Source: a virus
DNA: 47,999 nucleotides
Strand: one strand, 5' to 3'
Virus record (IMG/VR): IMGVR_UViG_3300050821_004405
Coordinates: 1 to 47,999 of that record
Of this stretch, positions 8,202 to 29,928 are shown one piece after another. Each line of letters begins with the position of its first letter. Position 1 is the stretch's first letter. Below the pieces are notes generated by a model, which saw nothing but the letters and a program-made list of their open reading frames with translations, was not told the DNA's origin and did not search any database. A program made the translations under genes and the position numbers.

Positions 8202-9701
8202 TTATGTGTTGCCTTTAGTTTCGTTGCCCTTCTCCGGGCCATCCAAGGCCTCTTGCATACGTGCCAGAGGCAGGGGTTCACGCAAACCCTCACCCACTTC
8301 GGTCTCCATTGTGAAAACATCATCGGCCTTAAGTGCCTTCATATACTCTTCAGGCGTCAAAAGGTCAGCACTGAGGTTTTGGAAGTGGCGGTTTTGCTTG
8401 GAGGTGCGGATCTCTTCTTCCTCTACAGGTCCCAAGACACGTAAAGGCTTAAAGCCAATATCCAAGTCCTGAGGTTCAAAACCAAACAAATGACGGCATG
8501 CGGCCTTGACCACCGGATAGCAGATATCCAATGCGGGCTCCCTGATCTCGCTTTCGATCATAGCATTGTAGTTTTCAAGGTCATCGGTATTGGCATTTAG
8601 GCCTGAAGTGGCTGTAAACCCAAAGAGCTTGGTCATGGGCATGCGCACGGCCGCGCTCATCCCGATCATGATCTGCTTAAAGACTTCTCCCATGCCTGAG
8701 AAGGTGATCTGCTTTTGGACATAATCATCCTCCATGTCCATCATTATTGCCCGGTGGTAGTTTTTTAGGTAATTCATGATCGCCACACGCTTATTGACCT
8801 TGTTGCGGGCTAGGTCAGAGATAACGGTTGAATTGAACCCTGCCAGCTTATAAACGTCAATTTTGGCCTCATCCATCAACTGGAAGAGCACGTTTTCGGC
8901 TTTGATGAATTGGTTGATAGCGCGAATCATGCGTTCGAATTCAGACATACCCCATCCCTGTAGGCGAGGTCTTAAAAAGCTTGGGGCTTCTTTACCAATG
9001 ACGCGCATGACCCGATCTTTACGCAATGACTGGCCATAATAATTGTATGGAAATTCCACCTCGTTAAGCTGGATGACATTCAATACCAGTTCCCATCGGT
9101 CGGCCGCCACAAATGATAATGGCAGGTCTGGATAATCAACATAGTTCCAATTAAGAGGACCAAGAGGGTCTTGAGCCACGTTGATGATCAGCCCTGCGCC
9201 CCCATAAAGCCTTGCCCATCTAAAGACGTCCTTGATCTCATGCAGGGTCTTGCTCTCCCTGAGCCAGTTGTTAAGGGTGCGGATATCCTCATCATCCAGT
9301 TCTTCGGACTTAATCTCTAATCCCCCCCTAAACGCATCAAGAACCGGCACATCAATTGCGGTCTGCAAGATGCCATGGGTCATATAGGCTTGTGTGACCG
9401 CCACGCGGTTCAAAGTGATAATTGGGGTATAGTTGTTTGACTGGAAAAGGGTTTGTCCACTTGAAAGCGGTTGGGGATAAAACGGTGAATTGCTTTGGCT
9501 ATCAAATACCCCGGAGAGCATTTCATCGCCTGTATCAAAGCTGTTTTCAACCTTGACTCCCTGAGTAAAGAGACTTTCTAAAGGTGAGGTTAATTCGATT
9601 TTTCCCATCCCCTGAGGGCTATTTTTGAGAGATTTTCTCATATTTGTGCCTTTTTGGACAGAATTTGGTAATTTAATTGGGCTTGTCTTTTTAGAGGGCA
9701 T
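8202..9701 (-). CDS. portal protein (DUF1073 family)
   Basis: The 499-residue protein matches the DUF1073 portal family: TLNRVAVTQAYMTHGILQTA near residue 90, WARLYGGAGLIIN, AADRWEL, a QFIKAENVLFQLM helix, then MPMTKLFGFTATSGLNAN...DLENYNAMIESEIRE, the conserved portal C-terminal region. Twelve copies form the ring through which DNA is packaged and ejected. The first residues overlap the end of the large terminase gene; a second ATG about 20 codons in is an alternative start. Confidence 0.88.
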   Translation of the reverse strand: MPSKKTSPIKLPNSVQKGTNMRKSLKNSPQGMGKIELTSPLESLFTQGVKVENSFDTGDEMLSGVFDSQSNSPFYPQPLSSGQTLFQSNNYTPIITLNRVAVTQAYMTHGILQTAIDVPVLDAFRGGLEIKSEELDDEDIRTLNNWLRESKTLHEIKDVFRWARLYGGAGLIINVAQDPLGPLNWNYVDYPDLPLSFVAADRWELVLNVIQLNEVEFPYNYYGQSLRKDRVMRVIGKEAPSFLRPRLQGWGMSEFERMIRAINQFIKAENVLFQLMDEAKIDVYKLAGFNSTVISDLARNKVNKRVAIMNYLKNYHRAIMMDMEDDYVQKQITFSGMGEVFKQIMIGMSAAVRMPMTKLFGFTATSGLNANTDDLENYNAMIESEIREPALDICYPVVKAACRHLFGFEPQDLDIGFKPLRVLGPVEEEEIRTSKQNRHFQNLSADLLTPEEYMKALKADDVFTMETEVGEGLREPLPLARMQEALDGPEKGNETKGNT

Positions 9702-10980
9702 CGAATCCGCTCGCTTTCCGTTTGATTAAATCTTCTAATGCATAACGATTGTTATCAGGTGTATGATTTGATTTATCCACAGGCTCGCTTAAAATCTCTT
9801 GGGTCTTTTTATCCCTATCCCAACGGTAATTCTGGTAGTCATCCTTGGCGCCAGGGCAACGTTTATGAATATAAATGTGCCGATAACTACGAAGGAAATC
9901 AATGCCGTCTTGCAAATACCCCTGTTGCGTTCCTGTCTTTCCGCCTGCCTTACTGCTCTTGCTGCATGGCACACAGTTAATGCTCGGCCAATTCCTGCCG
10001 TTCTTGCTAAAAGGCTTTCTTAAGTGATTGATGGTATCCGGTCGGGAACTGTCGGCCATGATCTTATGTCGCAATAGGCCAGGCAATCCCTTAATCAATC
10101 GTTCATGCATCTCATCAAGCTCTATCCCTAATCCGTAGACCTCATAATCAATATAAAGATCAGTAAAGTCGCCATCTTGCTTTTCCCACATGCGATGGGC
10201 GGCCAGGGGATCAACACTAAAACCAAAGTCCAGACCGTAATAGAACTGCTTGACATCTGCGGGGGTTACGAAATCCGCATCCACAATGAGCTTGTCTTTA
10301 AATATGACATCTTGAGCGTACTGCTTATACTGACCTTCCCACACCCACAGGTATTTCTCATAATCGACAATCTTCATGTGCGCTTTTTGTTTGCGCAAGG
10401 TCATGGGGAACCATGGATTGTCCCGCCAGTTCATCTCCACAATGATCGAACCCGGCTGCGCATGGGTGATAAATGTCTTATCGCATGGACTGTCTTTGGT
10501 CTCGGGATTAAAAGACACCCAAAATTCCGCATCATCCTTACGGATGGTCGGGAGTAGGATGTCAATGCTCGGCTGACTTATCCCTTCCCCTTCTTCGATC
10601 CAGCAGATATTAATCCCTTTTAAGGATTTAATCTCATTGTAATTGTTCCTCAGGCCTCTAAAAATAAACTCGCTGCCGGTCCAGGACTTGATGGAGGTGT
10701 CAGTTATACGAAAGAACTTGTCCCACTTCAGCTCAGAGATGATATCCCTGAGGGTTTGATGCACTGACTCTTTGATAGAGCTTTGAAGTTCACGGCAACA
10801 AAGAAATCGCAGCCTCTCTGTTGCGGCGCGTCTAACCGCTAAACGTCCAAAACTTTCAGACTTCGCACTTCCCCGCCCCCCTTTGGCGATCTTAAAAGGT
10901 GCTGGCTTGACCAAGGGATAAAACTTTTTAGGATAGGTAATGATCGTATCATTTTGGTTCAGCTGGGGTAATACTAACAT
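9691..10980 (-). CDS. terL: terminase large subunit
   Basis: This 429-residue packaging motor has both expected domains. The ATPase has Walker A GGRGSAKSES (about residues 33-43), Walker B plus catalytic Glu in INICWIEEGEGIS, and motif III around WVSFNPET. The nuclease has its first acidic motif in YYGLDFGFSVDP, a second in IMADSSRPD, and a C-terminal acidic motif near NRYALEDLI. It cuts and pumps concatemeric DNA into proheads through the portal. It overlaps the small subunit by 32 bases. Confidence 0.95.
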   Translation of the reverse strand: MLVLPQLNQNDTIITYPKKFYPLVKPAPFKIAKGGRGSAKSESFGRLAVRRAATERLRFLCCRELQSSIKESVHQTLRDIISELKWDKFFRITDTSIKSWTGSEFIFRGLRNNYNEIKSLKGINICWIEEGEGISQPSIDILLPTIRKDDAEFWVSFNPETKDSPCDKTFITHAQPGSIIVEMNWRDNPWFPMTLRKQKAHMKIVDYEKYLWVWEGQYKQYAQDVIFKDKLIVDADFVTPADVKQFYYGLDFGFSVDPLAAHRMWEKQDGDFTDLYIDYEVYGLGIELDEMHERLIKGLPGLLRHKIMADSSRPDTINHLRKPFSKNGRNWPSINCVPCSKSSKAGGKTGTQQGYLQDGIDFLRSYRHIYIHKRCPGAKDDYQNYRWDRDKKTQEILSEPVDKSNHTPDNNRYALEDLIKRKASGFDAL

Positions 10981-13213: not shown

Positions 13214-14395
13214 ATGCGTATAATTAATGGAATTCCGGTTTGGGGTGATCCGGTTGATGAGGGAGCCCTAGCCCAAATTGAAACATGCAAGAAGACCGCC
13301 TATAAGGCAGCCTTAATGGCTGATCATCACCTTGGCTATGGAGTTCCTATTGGTGGAGTTGTGGCCTATAAAAACCAAATATCGCCATCTGGAGTGGGTT
13401 TTGACATCGCCTGTGGCAATATGGCGGTTATGACTGATTTGGTATGGGAAGACATTAAGCCGAATGTCTCTTTGTTGGCGGATGAAATATTTAAACAAAT
13501 AGCTTTTGGCGTTGGTCGCAAGAATGATGAGCGCGTTGATCATCCATTGTTTGAGGACGATGCTTGGAAGGTTTTTCCAGATTCTATTGACAAAAAAGCG
13601 GCCGAAAGCCAACTTGGAACAGTTGGATCTGGGAACCATTATGTGGATGTCTTTATTGATACCCTTGAGCGTGTGTGGATTGGTGTGCACTTTGGGTCCC
13701 GTGGGCTCGGACACAAGATTGCGACCCACTTCCTCAGGGCTGGCGGTGCCCAAGATGGTATTAATGTTGAACCCCTAGTGGTTGATGTTGATTCTGCCTT
13801 GGGAGCTGATTATCTGGTGGCCATGGAATTGGCAGGCAAATATGCTTATGCAGGCCGTGAATGGGTATGCCACAAGGTTATGCAGATCATGGGTGCTTCT
13901 CCGCGCACCCGTGTCCACAACCACCACAACTTCGCTTGGAAAGAAACACATCAAGGTGAAGACCTTTGGGTGGTGCGCAAAGGTGCTACCCCTTCCTTCC
14001 CCGGCCAGAAAGGATTTGTGGGGGGATCTATGGGTGACATATCCGTTATTTTAGAAGGCATTGAGAGTCCAGATAGTATTCATAGTCTATACTCTACCGT
14101 TCATGGTGCCGGGCGCGTGATGTCCCGAAATGATGCCAAAGGAAAATTCATTAAGGATGAGAATGGTTATAAGAAGCGCGGTCCCGGATTGGTAAGGCAT
14201 GATGAGATGATGAAGTGGATTGCCAATAAACATGTTTGCTTGCGCGGAGCTGGGGTTGATGAGGCACCTCAATGCTACAAAAGGATTGAGAACGTCTTGG
14301 GCGAACACGCCACATCCATTAAGATCACTGAGGTGCTCCATCCGGTCATTGTCTGTATGGCGGGGGAAGACATCACAGATCCATACAAAGATTAA
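13214..14395 (+). CDS. rtcB: RtcB-type RNA ligase
   Basis: The 393-residue protein has the full RtcB signature: HHLGYGVPIGGVVA, GVGFDIACGN (metal-binding Asp/Cys), QLGTVGSGNHYVDV (Asn/His), VHFGSRGLGH, RVHNHHNFAW, VVRKGATPSFPGQKG, GSMGD, then STVHGAGRVMSR, with the guanylylated His at about residue 297, and CLRGAGVDEAPQCYKRIENVL at the end. The family joins 2',3'-cyclic-phosphate (3'-phosphate) RNA ends to 5'-OH ends with GTP and Mn. In a phage it would repair tRNAs cut by host defence nucleases or ligate a phage RNA. All active-site residues appear intact. Confidence 0.95.
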   Translation: MRIINGIPVWGDPVDEGALAQIETCKKTAYKAALMADHHLGYGVPIGGVVAYKNQISPSGVGFDIACGNMAVMTDLVWEDIKPNVSLLADEIFKQIAFGVGRKNDERVDHPLFEDDAWKVFPDSIDKKAAESQLGTVGSGNHYVDVFIDTLERVWIGVHFGSRGLGHKIATHFLRAGGAQDGINVEPLVVDVDSALGADYLVAMELAGKYAYAGREWVCHKVMQIMGASPRTRVHNHHNFAWKETHQGEDLWVVRKGATPSFPGQKGFVGGSMGDISVILEGIESPDSIHSLYSTVHGAGRVMSRNDAKGKFIKDENGYKKRGPGLVRHDEMMKWIANKHVCLRGAGVDEAPQCYKRIENVLGEHATSIKITEVLHPVIVCMAGEDITDPYKD

Positions 14396-21240: not shown

Positions 21241-22645
21241 AAATTTATTTGGAATCAAAGAATTTTACTCAGATGGAAAAGATATCGAATTAACCGGGAA
21301 GAATGGCGTCTGCAAATCAGCGGTAATCGATGCCATTAAGTACGCCCTGACCAATAAATCAGAACGCGAATATATTATATTGGCTGGCGAGCAAGAAGGT
21401 GAAGTATTCATTCAGACCGATACTGGTCTTAGCATCCACCGTAAATCACGGACAAATAAAGCCGACTATAAATCTATCAAGCAAGAAGGGGATAAGATCG
21501 AGAAAAACGAGTCTTTCGTCCGCGAACTATTTACTGAACTGCAATTAAACCCCGTAGAATTCTCTACAATGCCTCCGCAGGAACAAAACCGCATTATCCT
21601 TGACCTAATTGATTTCAAGTGGGATTTAAATTGGATCAGGTCCCAATTTGGTGAAATCCCACCGGATGTGAATTATGAGCAGAACATTCTAGGTGTTCTG
21701 CATGAAATACAGGACAAAGAAGGCTATTACTTTAAACGTCGTGAAGAGTTTAACCGAGAGGCTAGAAATAAGCAGGCATTTATTGAGGAGATTGCAAAGA
21801 ATCTCCCAGATAAATATGATGCTGAAAAATGGGAATCCGTAAATCTCGGAGAACTATACAAAAAAATTGAGGCCATTCGATATAAGAATAATGAAATCGA
21901 AAATGCCAAGGCCATCGTTAAGAATAGGGATAATCGTGTCAGAAGCTTCCAAGCTGAATTAGAGATTGAGAAGTCAGCCATTGATAAGGAAGCCACTCAT
22001 ACGCGCACCTCTCTTGAGAAACAAATCGTCGAGCTTGAGAATAAAATCAAGGCCTACAAAAAAGAAATTGACACCATTGAGGAAAAGAAGCTGGACAAGA
22101 TAGCGATTACCCAGAAGACCTATGATGCCAATGTGGCCGAGCTGGAAGGACAGGTCAAAGAGCATGAAGAATTAGCAAAATTGGAGACTACTAATTTTAA
22201 TGATCTCCAGGAGGAAGCAGAGAACACTGAAAAAATGAAATCATTCGTTAATGAATATAAGCGTATGATCGAATTGAAAGAAGACGTGGATAAGCTCGTG
22301 GCAGATTCTCAGGCCTTAACTGAAAAAATTGAGAAGGCCAGAACATTGCCGGGAGAAATATTAGCCACCGCAAATATCCCAATTGAAGGCCTCAGCATTA
22401 AAGATGGCCTTCCATTAATCAATGGCCTGCCCATATCTAATCTATCCGAGGGCGAGAAGTTTGAGTTGTGCATTGGAGTCGCCACCCGAAATTCAAATGC
22501 CTTGCAGATGATATTAATTGACGGCATTGAACGTCTTGCCACGGCCAAAAGAGAAAAAATATACGCTAATCTAAAAGAAAAGGGCGTGCAATTTGTAGCA
22601 ACAAGAACTACGGACGAGGATACCCTTCACGTAGTGGAATTATAA
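21215..22645 (+). CDS. SMC/Rad50-like AAA ATPase of the recombination module
   Basis: This 476-residue ABC-type ATPase has a Walker A-like loop GKNGVCKS (residues 28-35) followed by AVIDAIKYAL, a Q-loop region, two long coiled-coil arms (about 160-360), the signature NLSEGEKFEL and Walker B MILIDGIERL near the C-terminus. Such short SbcC-like proteins accompany RecT and PD-(D/E)XK nucleases in phages and probably act in end processing. The usual G before the Walker A Lys is Cys (VCKS instead of GKS), an unusual change that may alter ATP use. Confidence 0.85.
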   Translation: MKISKLRIRNLFGIKEFYSDGKDIELTGKNGVCKSAVIDAIKYALTNKSEREYIILAGEQEGEVFIQTDTGLSIHRKSRTNKADYKSIKQEGDKIEKNESFVRELFTELQLNPVEFSTMPPQEQNRIILDLIDFKWDLNWIRSQFGEIPPDVNYEQNILGVLHEIQDKEGYYFKRREEFNREARNKQAFIEEIAKNLPDKYDAEKWESVNLGELYKKIEAIRYKNNEIENAKAIVKNRDNRVRSFQAELEIEKSAIDKEATHTRTSLEKQIVELENKIKAYKKEIDTIEEKKLDKIAITQKTYDANVAELEGQVKEHEELAKLETTNFNDLQEEAENTEKMKSFVNEYKRMIELKEDVDKLVADSQALTEKIEKARTLPGEILATANIPIEGLSIKDGLPLINGLPISNLSEGEKFELCIGVATRNSNALQMILIDGIERLATAKREKIYANLKEKGVQFVATRTTDEDTLHVVEL

Positions 22646-22648
22646 TAA

Positions 22649-22883
22649 CTGTGTGTAATCTCCCGTAATTGGTAGCGGGCAACGTTGATTGACAGAATAG
22701 GGTGAAATCGATTTATAATCGAAGTTGGTATCGGAGAACCCCGAACCGACGCAATACCTTAACGGCCTCACGCGAAGATCAGCACTATCATCGGATATCC
22801 CGATGAAAAGCGCGGTTGACCTACAAAATAGGTTTCTGAAAAAGATGAGGGTCTTGGAGGTTCAAATCCTCCCACACTGGCCA
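22649..22883 (+). ncRNA. structured RNA with a tRNA-type 3' end (possible interrupted tRNA or tRNA-like RNA)
   Basis: The 3' end is tRNA-like: T-arm GGAGG TTCAAAT CCTCC (22856-22872), acceptor strand CACACTG, G, then CCA (22881-22883). At the 5' end CTGTGTG (22649-22655) pairs with the acceptor strand at 6 of 7 positions, followed by a D-arm-like CCCGT AATTGGTA GCGGG (22662-22679). About 175 nt lie between the D-like and T arms, with hairpins TCGATT/AATCGA, GGTAT/ATACC, CATCGG/CCGATG inside CGCG/CGCG, ACCTA/TAGGT and a variable-arm-like AAGA/TCTT. I could not place a normal anticodon arm or group I intron core, nor a tmRNA tag. No long frame covers this gap. Confidence 0.55.
22689..22719 (+). 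promoter_or_regulatory. promoter-like hexamers within the structured RNA
   Basis: TTGACA (22689-22694) and a perfect TATAAT (22714-22719) are 19 bases apart, slightly long for sigma70. TATAAT is part of the TCGATT/AATCGA hairpin, so the match may be incidental. Confidence 0.25.
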
Positions 22884-22887
22884 TAAC

Positions 22888-23208
22888 ATGAATCCAATCA
22901 AACAACAAATTAAAAGAGAAGCAGCAAAATCTTTATTCAAGGCTGGTTTAAAATGGAAAGAGTTCTCTGATACTCATTGGCGAGTTAATGAGATTGACTT
23001 CTGGCCGACAACGGATAAATGGCTTTGCCCTTTAACCGGAGAGACAGAATTCGGAGTTGAGAACTTAATAAAATATATCAAGGTAAAATCCCCATCAAAA
23101 GGAATTAAAACCTTGTCTGTAGAACAGATGTTTGATATCGCTCGTAAGCACCACGGAAGCCTTTTTGATATGTGCAAAATAATGCATAAGGAGATTTATG
23201 GAATATAA
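22888..23208 (+). CDS. hypothetical protein, 106 aa
   Basis: It starts four bases after the CCA of the tRNA-like RNA, with no ribosome site of its own except what that RNA provides. The product is basic and carries a W-rich middle (HWRVNEIDFWPTTDKWLCPL) followed by a helical end. The proteins of similar pattern that I can recall are small phage proteins of unknown role. Confidence 0.6.
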   Translation: MNPIKQQIKREAAKSLFKAGLKWKEFSDTHWRVNEIDFWPTTDKWLCPLTGETEFGVENLIKYIKVKSPSKGIKTLSVEQMFDIARKHHGSLFDMCKIMHKEIYGI

Positions 23209-28043: not shown

Positions 28044-28414
28044 TGGAAAAACCCGTCGATCAAAGAGAACAGGAGTATTGGCATGGAACCAAAAATAAAC
28101 TCATTCGCTATTACTTCTATTGTCAGCGCGGCTTGGATCTGTTTAATAATTTTAGGTACGTCATTATGGCTATATTCGGTATTTATTATACGCTTAAGCT
28201 TAAAAATCCAGACATACTTCTGGGTATGTTTTTATTCTCTATCCCTCTTCTCATGTTTATTGGGTATTGGTCTGTGCATCATGTGGGTAAAGTCATTGAT
28301 TGGCTAAATGTAAAATTCTCAACTCACTATTCTCTCTATGCCATCAAACTTCAAGAGGAGATTCGAGATGCCGTACAAAAATTGGTTAAAGACGGTTCTG
28401 AAGTTATTGATTGA
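28043..28414 (+). CDS. membrane protein next to glycosyltransferase, 123 aa
   Basis: Two membrane segments (FRYVIMAIFGIYYTL and LLGMFLFSIPLLMFIGYWSV) are followed by an amphipathic C-terminal region. It overlaps the following small gene by 47 bases. The position suggests a partner of the glycosyltransferase (for example a flippase-like helper), but it lacks a recognisable family. Confidence 0.55.
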   Translation: MEKPVDQREQEYWHGTKNKLIRYYFYCQRGLDLFNNFRYVIMAIFGIYYTLKLKNPDILLGMFLFSIPLLMFIGYWSVHHVGKVIDWLNVKFSTHYSLYAIKLQEEIRDAVQKLVKDGSEVID

Positions 28415-28526
28415 TGCCCTCATTGCATGTGTGGTATTCATTCTATTTTTTGCGTTTTCTATCTTTCTTTACATCACCATACCCGGAGGCAGCAGTGATT
28501 CCATCGATTATTCTAATCCTCATTAA
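28368..28526 (+). CDS. small membrane protein, 52 aa
   Basis: An AGAGGAG site precedes the ATG at 28368. One long membrane segment (LLIDALIACVVFILFFAFSI) is followed by a short periplasm-like tail. It overlaps both the preceding gene and the start of the glycosyltransferase, so it is translated with them. Confidence 0.5.
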   Translation: MPYKNWLKTVLKLLIDALIACVVFILFFAFSIFLYITIPGGSSDSIDYSNPH

Positions 28527-29928
28527 TATTGCTCTATACTTTCACTCGACGACATATGATGTCATTATGGATGATTACCAATGGTACCAGAAGAGGCGCC
28601 AGTTGGGTTTTTTCCCTATTTCCAAGATAAGGAATTTTAACAATTTCCAAGAGTTTATTTCAGATCACCTCTATAGCGGTACCACGTTCGGTACAAATGT
28701 CAAATTAGAACATTGGGTAAAGATAGCCATTAACTCAACCATTGCGATACTTATGTTTTTTGCACTAGGGCACGACAAGATATCTTTTGGTGCCGCGGTT
28801 CTCTATATTTGTAATCCAATTAATAACCAGACATCCCTGTGGCTCAATGGCCGTCGGTATGCGATAAATATTATATTGGTATTGACAATGATGTTGGTGC
28901 CAATTATTGCACCCGCCCTATATCTTTTTAGTGGACTACTTCAAGTCACCGCCATTTTCTCACCAATATTACTTTTAAATAAATCCCCATGGTTCCTTCT
29001 TTTGATCCCGATATTCCTGCTGGCCGGGAGTCAATATATTATAGGAAAATGTCGTGGGCGCATGGAGGTCATGGCAGATGGGGATCTGAAAACTTTCAAA
29101 CCTACCAGATTTATTGTCATCGTCAAGACCTTTGGTTTCTTTTTTTGGAAGATGATATTCCCTCAAGTATGTGCGATGCAATATCCTGATCGTTTGAAGT
29201 GGGGATTAACTAAGGAGGGGACAGAAGATGCGTATAAAATTGATGCTTATTTCTTTAAAGGCACAGCAGCTTTGGGTGCGTGTGCGATTATATTTTTTAT
29301 TCTTCCTCATAGGTATATTGGATTTTTTGGATTCTTTGTTTTAGCCACTCTGCAATGGTCAGCCGTCTTGCCCGTGACCCAAATTCTATCAGATAGATAT
29401 TGCAGCATGCCAAATGTATTTATGATGTTTTTCCTTTCATATTTTTTATCAATGGCCGGGATTCTCTATGTCCCATTATTAATAGCATTTTGTGCTTATT
29501 ATTGTATTTGCCTCTCTGAAGTGTACCCGATGTATAAAGACCTTACTTCATTTTATCAATACCACCTCCGTCACTTTCCTGCACTGTCTTGGTACCGACA
29601 CAATTTGATTCAGGACCTAATGAACGAAGGGAAGCAAGAAATGGCCTCAGCCCAGACATTCGAGGGATTAATCAATGATCCAAAAGATTTCCGTCTTCTT
29701 ATTTGGGGAGCCATCATGTCTTTGATAAAGGGAGATACTAAGCATGCAGAGGACTTCCTAAAGGAAGCAGAGAAGAATACCTACATCAATAAATATGATG
29801 ACAATATGGCGGAAATCGCCAACTTAAGGAAGCAGATAAGCATCATCGCTCCCATAGAAAAGAAAAAGGAGCGCATGACCCAAAGAGAAAAATTCGTTTA
29901 TATGAAAAGACGCGGCCTAAAGGGATAG
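28495..29928 (+). CDS. multi-pass membrane GT-C glycosyltransferase (TMTC-like)
   Basis: The 477-residue protein starts at GTG 28495, with GGAGG five bases upstream. It has about ten membrane segments. An acidic motif after the first segment (IMDDYQWY) and the segment CNPINNQTSLWLNGRRYAIN resemble the DD and hP...E.v.W.sGR motifs of TMTC/PMT-type O-glycosyltransferases. QILSDRYCSMPNVFMM matches their aeRY.y.Ps region. The C-terminal 110 residues are helical with a TPR-like look (AEDFLKEAEKNT...). It would transfer a lipid-linked sugar to a surface protein or glycan, as in seroconversion. The family call is by motif, not certain. Confidence 0.55.
   Translation: MIPSIILILINIALYFHSTTYDVIMDDYQWYQKRRQLGFFPISKIRNFNNFQEFISDHLYSGTTFGTNVKLEHWVKIAINSTIAILMFFALGHDKISFGAAVLYICNPINNQTSLWLNGRRYAINIILVLTMMLVPIIAPALYLFSGLLQVTAIFSPILLLNKSPWFLLLIPIFLLAGSQYIIGKCRGRMEVMADGDLKTFKPTRFIVIVKTFGFFFWKMIFPQVCAMQYPDRLKWGLTKEGTEDAYKIDAYFFKGTAALGACAIIFFILPHRYIGFFGFFVLATLQWSAVLPVTQILSDRYCSMPNVFMMFFLSYFLSMAGILYVPLLIAFCAYYCICLSEVYPMYKDLTSFYQYHLRHFPALSWYRHNLIQDLMNEGKQEMASAQTFEGLINDPKDFRLLIWGAIMSLIKGDTKHAEDFLKEAEKNTYINKYDDNMAEIANLRKQISIIAPIEKKKERMTQREKFVYMKRRGLKG

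Follow-up and report, generated by a model that had tools for sequence, protein, structure and literature searches.

The element lies on the plus strand of an uncultured tailed phage, recognizable by its terminase, portal, head, baseplate and tail genes, within a 47,999-nt stretch of DNA that was analyzed as a whole (the window). It occupies a 242-nt gap between an AAA-type ORF that ends at 22645 and a 106-aa ORF that starts at 22888, filling it with 235 nt that begin 3 nt past the stop codon of the upstream gene and end, with CCA, 4 nt before the downstream ATG. The G+C content of this gap is 0.46, versus 0.35–0.43 in the seven other large gaps listed. There is no long frame, as a first-pass annotation had observed, the only plus-strand ORFs of at least 20 aa in the element being of 34 and 53 aa. 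The downstream 106-aa ORF (22888–23208) has no Shine-Dalgarno-like sequence near its ATG by direct reading, and the GGAGG nearest to this codon is that of the T-stem, 27 nt away.

Both ends of the element look like those of a tRNA (Table 1). The T-arm, acceptor, CCA and D-loop-like arm reported in the first-pass annotation were all confirmed by direct reading, and our count of acceptor pairs is the same, the mismatch being U2 opposite U71. The residues that build the elbow are present as well (T8, A14, A15 with T48, G18, G19, A21, T54, T55, C56, A58 and the G53-C61 pair), each of which has an established role in tRNA. The element thus has a tRNA-like elbow and processing end, with acceptor/T-arm stack, D-loop GG and N73-CCA. 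It departs from a normal tRNA in the linkers on either side of the D-arm, which are longer than usual (the one between acceptor and D-arm is usually 2 nt), and in the distance from D-arm to T-arm, which we measured at 176 nt, close to the earlier estimate of about 175 nt.

Table 1. Features of the tRNA-like element, in window coordinates
Feature	Position	Strand	Description	Basis
tRNA-like element	22649–22883	+	Intergenic, uncultured tailed phage	Direct reading
Acceptor stem, 5′ strand	22649–22655	+	CTGTGTG, 6/7 pairs with 22873–22879	Stem list
Linker, acceptor to D-arm	22656–22661	+	TAATCT, 6 nt	Direct reading
D-arm-like hairpin	22662–22679	+	CCCGT (22662–22666), G18G19-type loop AATTGGTA (22667–22674), GCGGG (22675–22679)	Direct reading
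Structured insert	22680–22855	+	176 nt, where anticodon arm and variable region would be	Direct reading; predicted folds
Long-range helix, 5′ strand	22684–22690	+	GTTGATT, 7 pairs including G-T with 22777–22783; closes first half of insert	In MFE
Hairpin	22708–22722	+	TCGATT-TAT-AATCGA	MFE, stem list
Hairpin	22724–22750	+	GTTGGT(A)TCGG ... CCGAACCGAC	MFE, stem list
Possible pseudoknot strand	22769–22774	+	CACGCG, with CGCGG 22811–22815 (post hoc)	Direct reading, descriptors
Long-range helix, 3′ strand	22777–22783	+	GATCAGC	Stem list
Perfect 7-bp hairpin	22788–22806	+	TCATCGG-ATATC-CCGATGA, best stem of the region	Stem list
Hairpin	22818–22834	+	GACCTA-CAAAA-TAGGTT	MFE, stem list
Hairpin beside T-arm	22842–22855	+	AAGAT-GAGG-GTCTT, possible long variable arm	MFE
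T-arm	22856–22872	+	GGAGG (22856–22860), TTCAAAT (22861–22867), CCTCC (22868–22872); perfect stem	RF00005 partial match
Acceptor 3′ strand and end	22873–22883	+	CACACTG (22873–22879), G73 (22880), CCA (22881–22883)	Direct reading; tRNA-Pro alignment

The frequency of such ends was measured with a script that scans both strands for a 5-bp T-stem with a TTCRANY loop and NCCA, a 6-of-7 acceptor partner up to 260 nt upstream and an adjacent D-arm. T-arm and NCCA by themselves occur once in the window and four times in 200 dinucleotide-shuffled windows, three times there when the acceptor partner is added. Since the full set, found once in the window, is absent from all 200 shuffled windows, the tRNA-like ends exceed what chance would produce. 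Run on 125 other loci, several of which hold ARAGORN tRNAs, the same script returned six cases of T-arm with NCCA, six with an acceptor partner and five full sets.

The insert and known RNA families

Several hairpins between the two arms had been noticed earlier, and they are indeed present in the MFE or the stem list, but they make weak evidence, as z is equal or lower in 10 of the 199 non-overlapping windows taken from this genome. The folding z of the element is −2.43 (−2.60 in the genome-window run) and that of 22680–22822 is −2.21; the stability of the fold is ordinary for this genome. When the insert was compared with the rest of the window, the best match was 20 nt (E 1.3).

The ARAGORN and Rfam comparisons that the first-pass annotation had suggested (tRNA, tmRNA and Intron_gpI) left only a partial match of the T-arm. 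ARAGORN finds neither a tRNA nor a tmRNA at the element. Rfam has no match anywhere in the window at gathering thresholds, and at E up to 10 the region 22600–22950 matches only RF00005, over the T-arm (22855–22872; 13.6 bits for a gathering threshold of 29, E 5.9), with no match to tmRNA or Intron_gpI. There is thus no ordinary tRNA, that is, no 70–95 nt cloverleaf by ARAGORN or RF00005. At a 60% threshold, ARAGORN called pseudo-tmRNAs throughout the window, which made its output uninformative.

We then considered an intron-containing tRNA by running through ARAGORN every single deletion that leaves 60–125 nt. None gives a tRNA at the default threshold. At relaxed thresholds there are 17 matches (95%) and 72 (90%), and the six that are listed start before the D-arm, which means that the native D-arm is discarded. 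The search for an anticodon arm yielded nothing above chance, arms of at least 4 bp being present in 762 of 2,000 shuffles, in keeping with the earlier failure to see a convincing one. Several options were drawn and set aside (GTTGA/TCAGC with two inserts, CAAC/GTTG, and GGTTT-CTGAAAA-AGATG), the contiguous arms being at chance level and the others having no independent support. The ends are tRNA-like, as first proposed; an interrupted tRNA may be correct but is borne out neither by the deletions nor by an anticodon arm. It is possible that the insert spans anticodon arm and variable region, or that there are two inserts.

In tmRNA, as in the element, a large domain takes the place of the anticodon arm between the tRNA ends. 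The element differs from tmRNA in having a stemmed D-arm, no match in ARAGORN (0 genes) or to the Rfam tmRNA models at E 10, and no tag frame that could be found, the last as previously noted; the suggestion of a reduced tmRNA-like molecule is not supported. A Y RNA was considered because an RtcB gene is present in the same phage. The bacterial Y RNA YrlA, a family included in Rfam, has a tRNA-like module and is accompanied by a Ro60 (TROVE) gene and usually by RtcB nearby. RtcB is present here, the TROVE domain is absent from the 18 distinct window proteins scanned with Pfam, and the element has no match in Rfam. Phages often carry an attP at a tRNA 3′ end. We considered this possibility but did not favor it, as no integrase stands out among the scanned proteins (a 112-aa ORF has a match to an integrase-labelled PHROG but none in Pfam) and as it would leave the D-arm unexplained.

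Canonical group I introns have a P3–P9 core that includes P6 and a G-C pair at the guanosine site. A group I-like layout can be drawn by hand on the element, with P3 at 22684–22690/22777–22783, P7 at 22769–22774/22811–22815, P8 at 22788–22806 and the D-arm as a P1 with U-G; the drawing also shows GAAA as J4/5 and a bulged A in P7. It has no P6, and C-G would stand at the guanosine site. A strict descriptor built from the drawing (P1-P3-P4-P7-P8) fits the element, none of 400 shuffles and none of 9,320 other 241-nt windows, but it also recognizes none of nine real group I introns, and a looser descriptor gives the element a score of 0 and its top score to 31 of 796 ordinary windows. With RF00028, real group I introns found in 45 genomes score 29–91 bits, against no match for the element at E 10, in agreement with the earlier statement that no group I core is present. 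Because the descriptor tests show a fit to this one sequence, and with no RF00028 match and P6 missing, a group I intron was dropped. A small group I-like ribozyme, in which the supposed D-arm would be P1 (CCCGU/GCGGG, its splice site at a U-G pair), is accordingly very improbable, for all that it can be drawn and that no shuffle or other window fits its strict descriptor.

Group I introns in tRNA genes resemble the element in placing a structured insert within a tRNA sequence. One example from these genomes (locus L117, 1501–1705, minus strand) is a 205-nt intron of 65.5 bits with RF00028, preceded by an apparent tRNA-Leu 5′ half; it has a GACTA/TAGTC motif, whereas the element has neither this motif, nor a match, nor P6. 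The tRNA around the L117 intron was missed by an ARAGORN run without introns. Four genomes of one phylum have paired, close RF00028 matches (L114/L126, L115/L123, L116/L124 and L118/L125), and the matches in L119, L121 and L123 lie in or beside 23S rRNA matches.

Relatives and resemblances

The comparison with related phages, also suggested in the first-pass annotation, did not find the element elsewhere. In blastn against phages there was no homologue, the six records returned all sharing a single match of 32 nt that falls in tail genes or in a record lacking annotation and was rejected; plasmids gave no match. The whole records of 19 distinct related phages have only matches of 15–20 nt, these records being a set of 7 (two matches of 19–20 nt, rejected) and a set of 13 (one of 15 nt, rejected) with one in common. 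Of six pattern scans, two were without a match, one gave a single tRNA-Tyr, two gave 3 and 71 matches, with a T-arm downstream in none of the 74, and one gave 24, again with no T-arm. A covariance model of 22680–22822, built from this sequence alone, recovered nothing but its own source sequence when run on 39 sources; its empty answers from 19 virus records and 45 genomes show little.

The neighboring genes were used in the same way. Seven IMG/VR loci have relatives of the AAA gene, at 48–78% identity, and in all of them the stop codon is followed by other sequence, never by the element. As these are the closest relatives of the AAA gene, the element is dispensable in this group. Among 23 loci with relatives of RecT, which is encoded further downstream, the element is absent, and eight T-arm-like hairpins are present, none of them with the remaining tRNA end. 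For the 106-aa ORF, searches of phages and IMG/VR gave no relative. The element is thus an orphan in the collections searched, with a predicted structure that has no covariation support.

The ends do have counterparts. When the last 57 nt were compared with phages by blastn, the closest matches, weak at E 0.4, were an unannotated stretch of an Enterococcus phage and Vibrio phage genes for tRNA-Pro, whose 3′ half can be aligned to 22842–22883 (42 nt). The tRNA-Pro of Vibrio phage VPp1 (KJ936628.1; locus L151, 364–440) has a 5′ acceptor strand, CTGTGTG, identical to that of the element, and has in common with it GGGTC ahead of the T-arm, GGTTCAAATCCT, CACAC and CCA. It differs in having A71 and A73, where the element has T71 (U71) and G73, and the element differs from it in its D-arm, in lacking an anticodon arm and in the 176 nt between the D- and T-arms. 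The likeness to Pro is not exclusive, because the short matches in 4 of 45 genomes of one phylum are to two tRNA-Pro, one tRNA-Leu and one tRNA-less stretch of 25 nt. As for the D-arm, IMG/VR has a single copy of its exact 18-mer, CCCGTAATTGGTAGCGGG, within a tRNA-Tyr (contig 3300045836_000041; locus L011, 2473–2555, D-arm at 2480–2497) that, unlike the element, is complete and bears the anticodon GTA. The best-supported statement that can be made about the element is that it stems from a tRNA, perhaps a Pro-like one.

Enterococcus phage EFP01 has an unannotated tRNA-like 3′ end (KY549443.1, 108512–108554; locus L152, 601–643) with a second T-arm just upstream. This end, missed by ARAGORN, adjoins three called tRNAs.

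Origin and possible role of the element

We tentatively favor the view that the element is a tRNA-derived, non-decoding RNA, the ends of which are still cut by the tRNA-processing enzymes of the host and the anticodon half of which has been lost or interrupted by a structured insert. It lies in a plus-strand gene cluster and would be transcribed together with its neighbors. The half that is kept (acceptor stem, D-loop/T-loop elbow and CCA) is the one that processing enzymes read, and the decoding half would have been lost or replaced by the insert. RNase P and 3′ processing enzymes recognize the tRNA parts that are retained. Host RNase P would then cut near 22649 and 3′ processing would end at or just after the CCA at 22883, so that excision would release a stable non-decoding RNA and the message of the upstream AAA-type gene would be separated from that of the downstream ORF, which would start a few bases before its ATG. 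Cleavage by RNase P is reported to depend on a 3′ RCCA motif (PMC12710915). The 3′ terminus of the element is GCCA. The U2-U71 mismatch and the long D-arm linkers might impair processing. The favored reading draws on the full tRNA-like set (one in the window, none in the shuffled windows), the elbow residues, the tRNA-Pro-like 3′ part, the snug fit between ORFs, the raised G+C content of the gap and the failure of single deletions to restore a default-threshold tRNA. Against it count the lack of a homologue, the different sequence at this site in the seven relatives and the ordinary fold.

The same observations bear on several other explanations. A decaying pseudogene, that is, a phage tRNA-Pro-like gene broken by an insertion and now without function, would account for the mismatch and G73 (positions 71 and 73 are both A in the Vibrio phage tRNA-Pro that shares the 5′ strand), for the missing anticodon arm, for the absence from relatives and for the ordinary fold. 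Yet the remaining arms, elbow residues and CCA are intact, which would need a recent break or selection, and the insert has no counterpart elsewhere in the window, so that this explanation strikes us as somewhat unlikely. About as doubtful, if not slightly more so, is the precursor of a working phage tRNA, from which the sequence between D- and T-arm would be spliced out by RNA catalysis or else cut out, with RtcB joining the ends. The tRNA ends that flank the insert are both well formed, the insert is folded (22680–22822) and the phage has RtcB, but ARAGORN at its default threshold recovers no tRNA from any single deletion, candidate anticodon arms are no commoner than chance would give, there is no group I match at E 10, and no tRNA-splicing endonuclease that would feed RtcB is known from bacteria. 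The RtcB gene itself (13214–14395; PF01139, E 3.8e-69 with Pfam) is real, as first annotated, and on the same strand, but its placing in one operon with the element was conjecture, since it is 8.3 kb upstream with many ORFs between. Its link to the element is its presence in the same phage alone. The three nearest named relatives of this RtcB are proteins of other phages (50–59% identity), with 58–59% identity to those of Tunturiibacter and Sinorhizobium phages.

Explanations that call for something new seem less probable. It is quite unlikely that the element is a tRNA mimic of new design, in which a processed, CCA-ended elbow would carry a pseudoknotted domain of ~176 nt and act as a regulator or decoy of tRNA-handling enzymes, or else a pre-tRNA whose splicing is catalyzed by a ribozyme that belongs to no known class. 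A new type of functional tRNA-like RNA, with a structured domain replacing the anticodon arm as in a tmRNA without a reading frame, would fit the elbow, the long-range helix and the hairpins of Table 1, but it is an improbable interpretation of a single copy with no relatives, no covariation and no tmRNA match. Least credible of all is a chance assembly in an untranscribed spacer: shuffled windows do produce T-arm, NCCA and acceptor partner together, but not with the D-arm, and the 42-nt likeness to phage tRNA-Pro would be left aside.

Should the favored tRNA-derived RNA be made and be stable, the phage would be exploiting tRNA processing, either to punctuate an operon or to produce a tRNA mimic; were it spliced, the splicing chemistry would be new. 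Phage T4 RNAs C and D are stable, have no known function and occur in a tRNA context; the element, if its RNA is stable, may be likened to them. At present the element is a single sequence without relatives. It escapes the usual searches for tRNAs and RNA families entirely, so that other tRNA-derived RNAs of this sort may lie unannotated in phage spacers.

Two further observations concern the phage itself. A 505-aa protein encoded at 28411–29928 from a TTG start reads as membrane-spanning and has no Pfam or PHROG match. For the terminase and portal (8202–10980), the closest named phage is Bdellovibrio phage phi1422 (39.5% and 37.2%), a likeness that may hint at the host.
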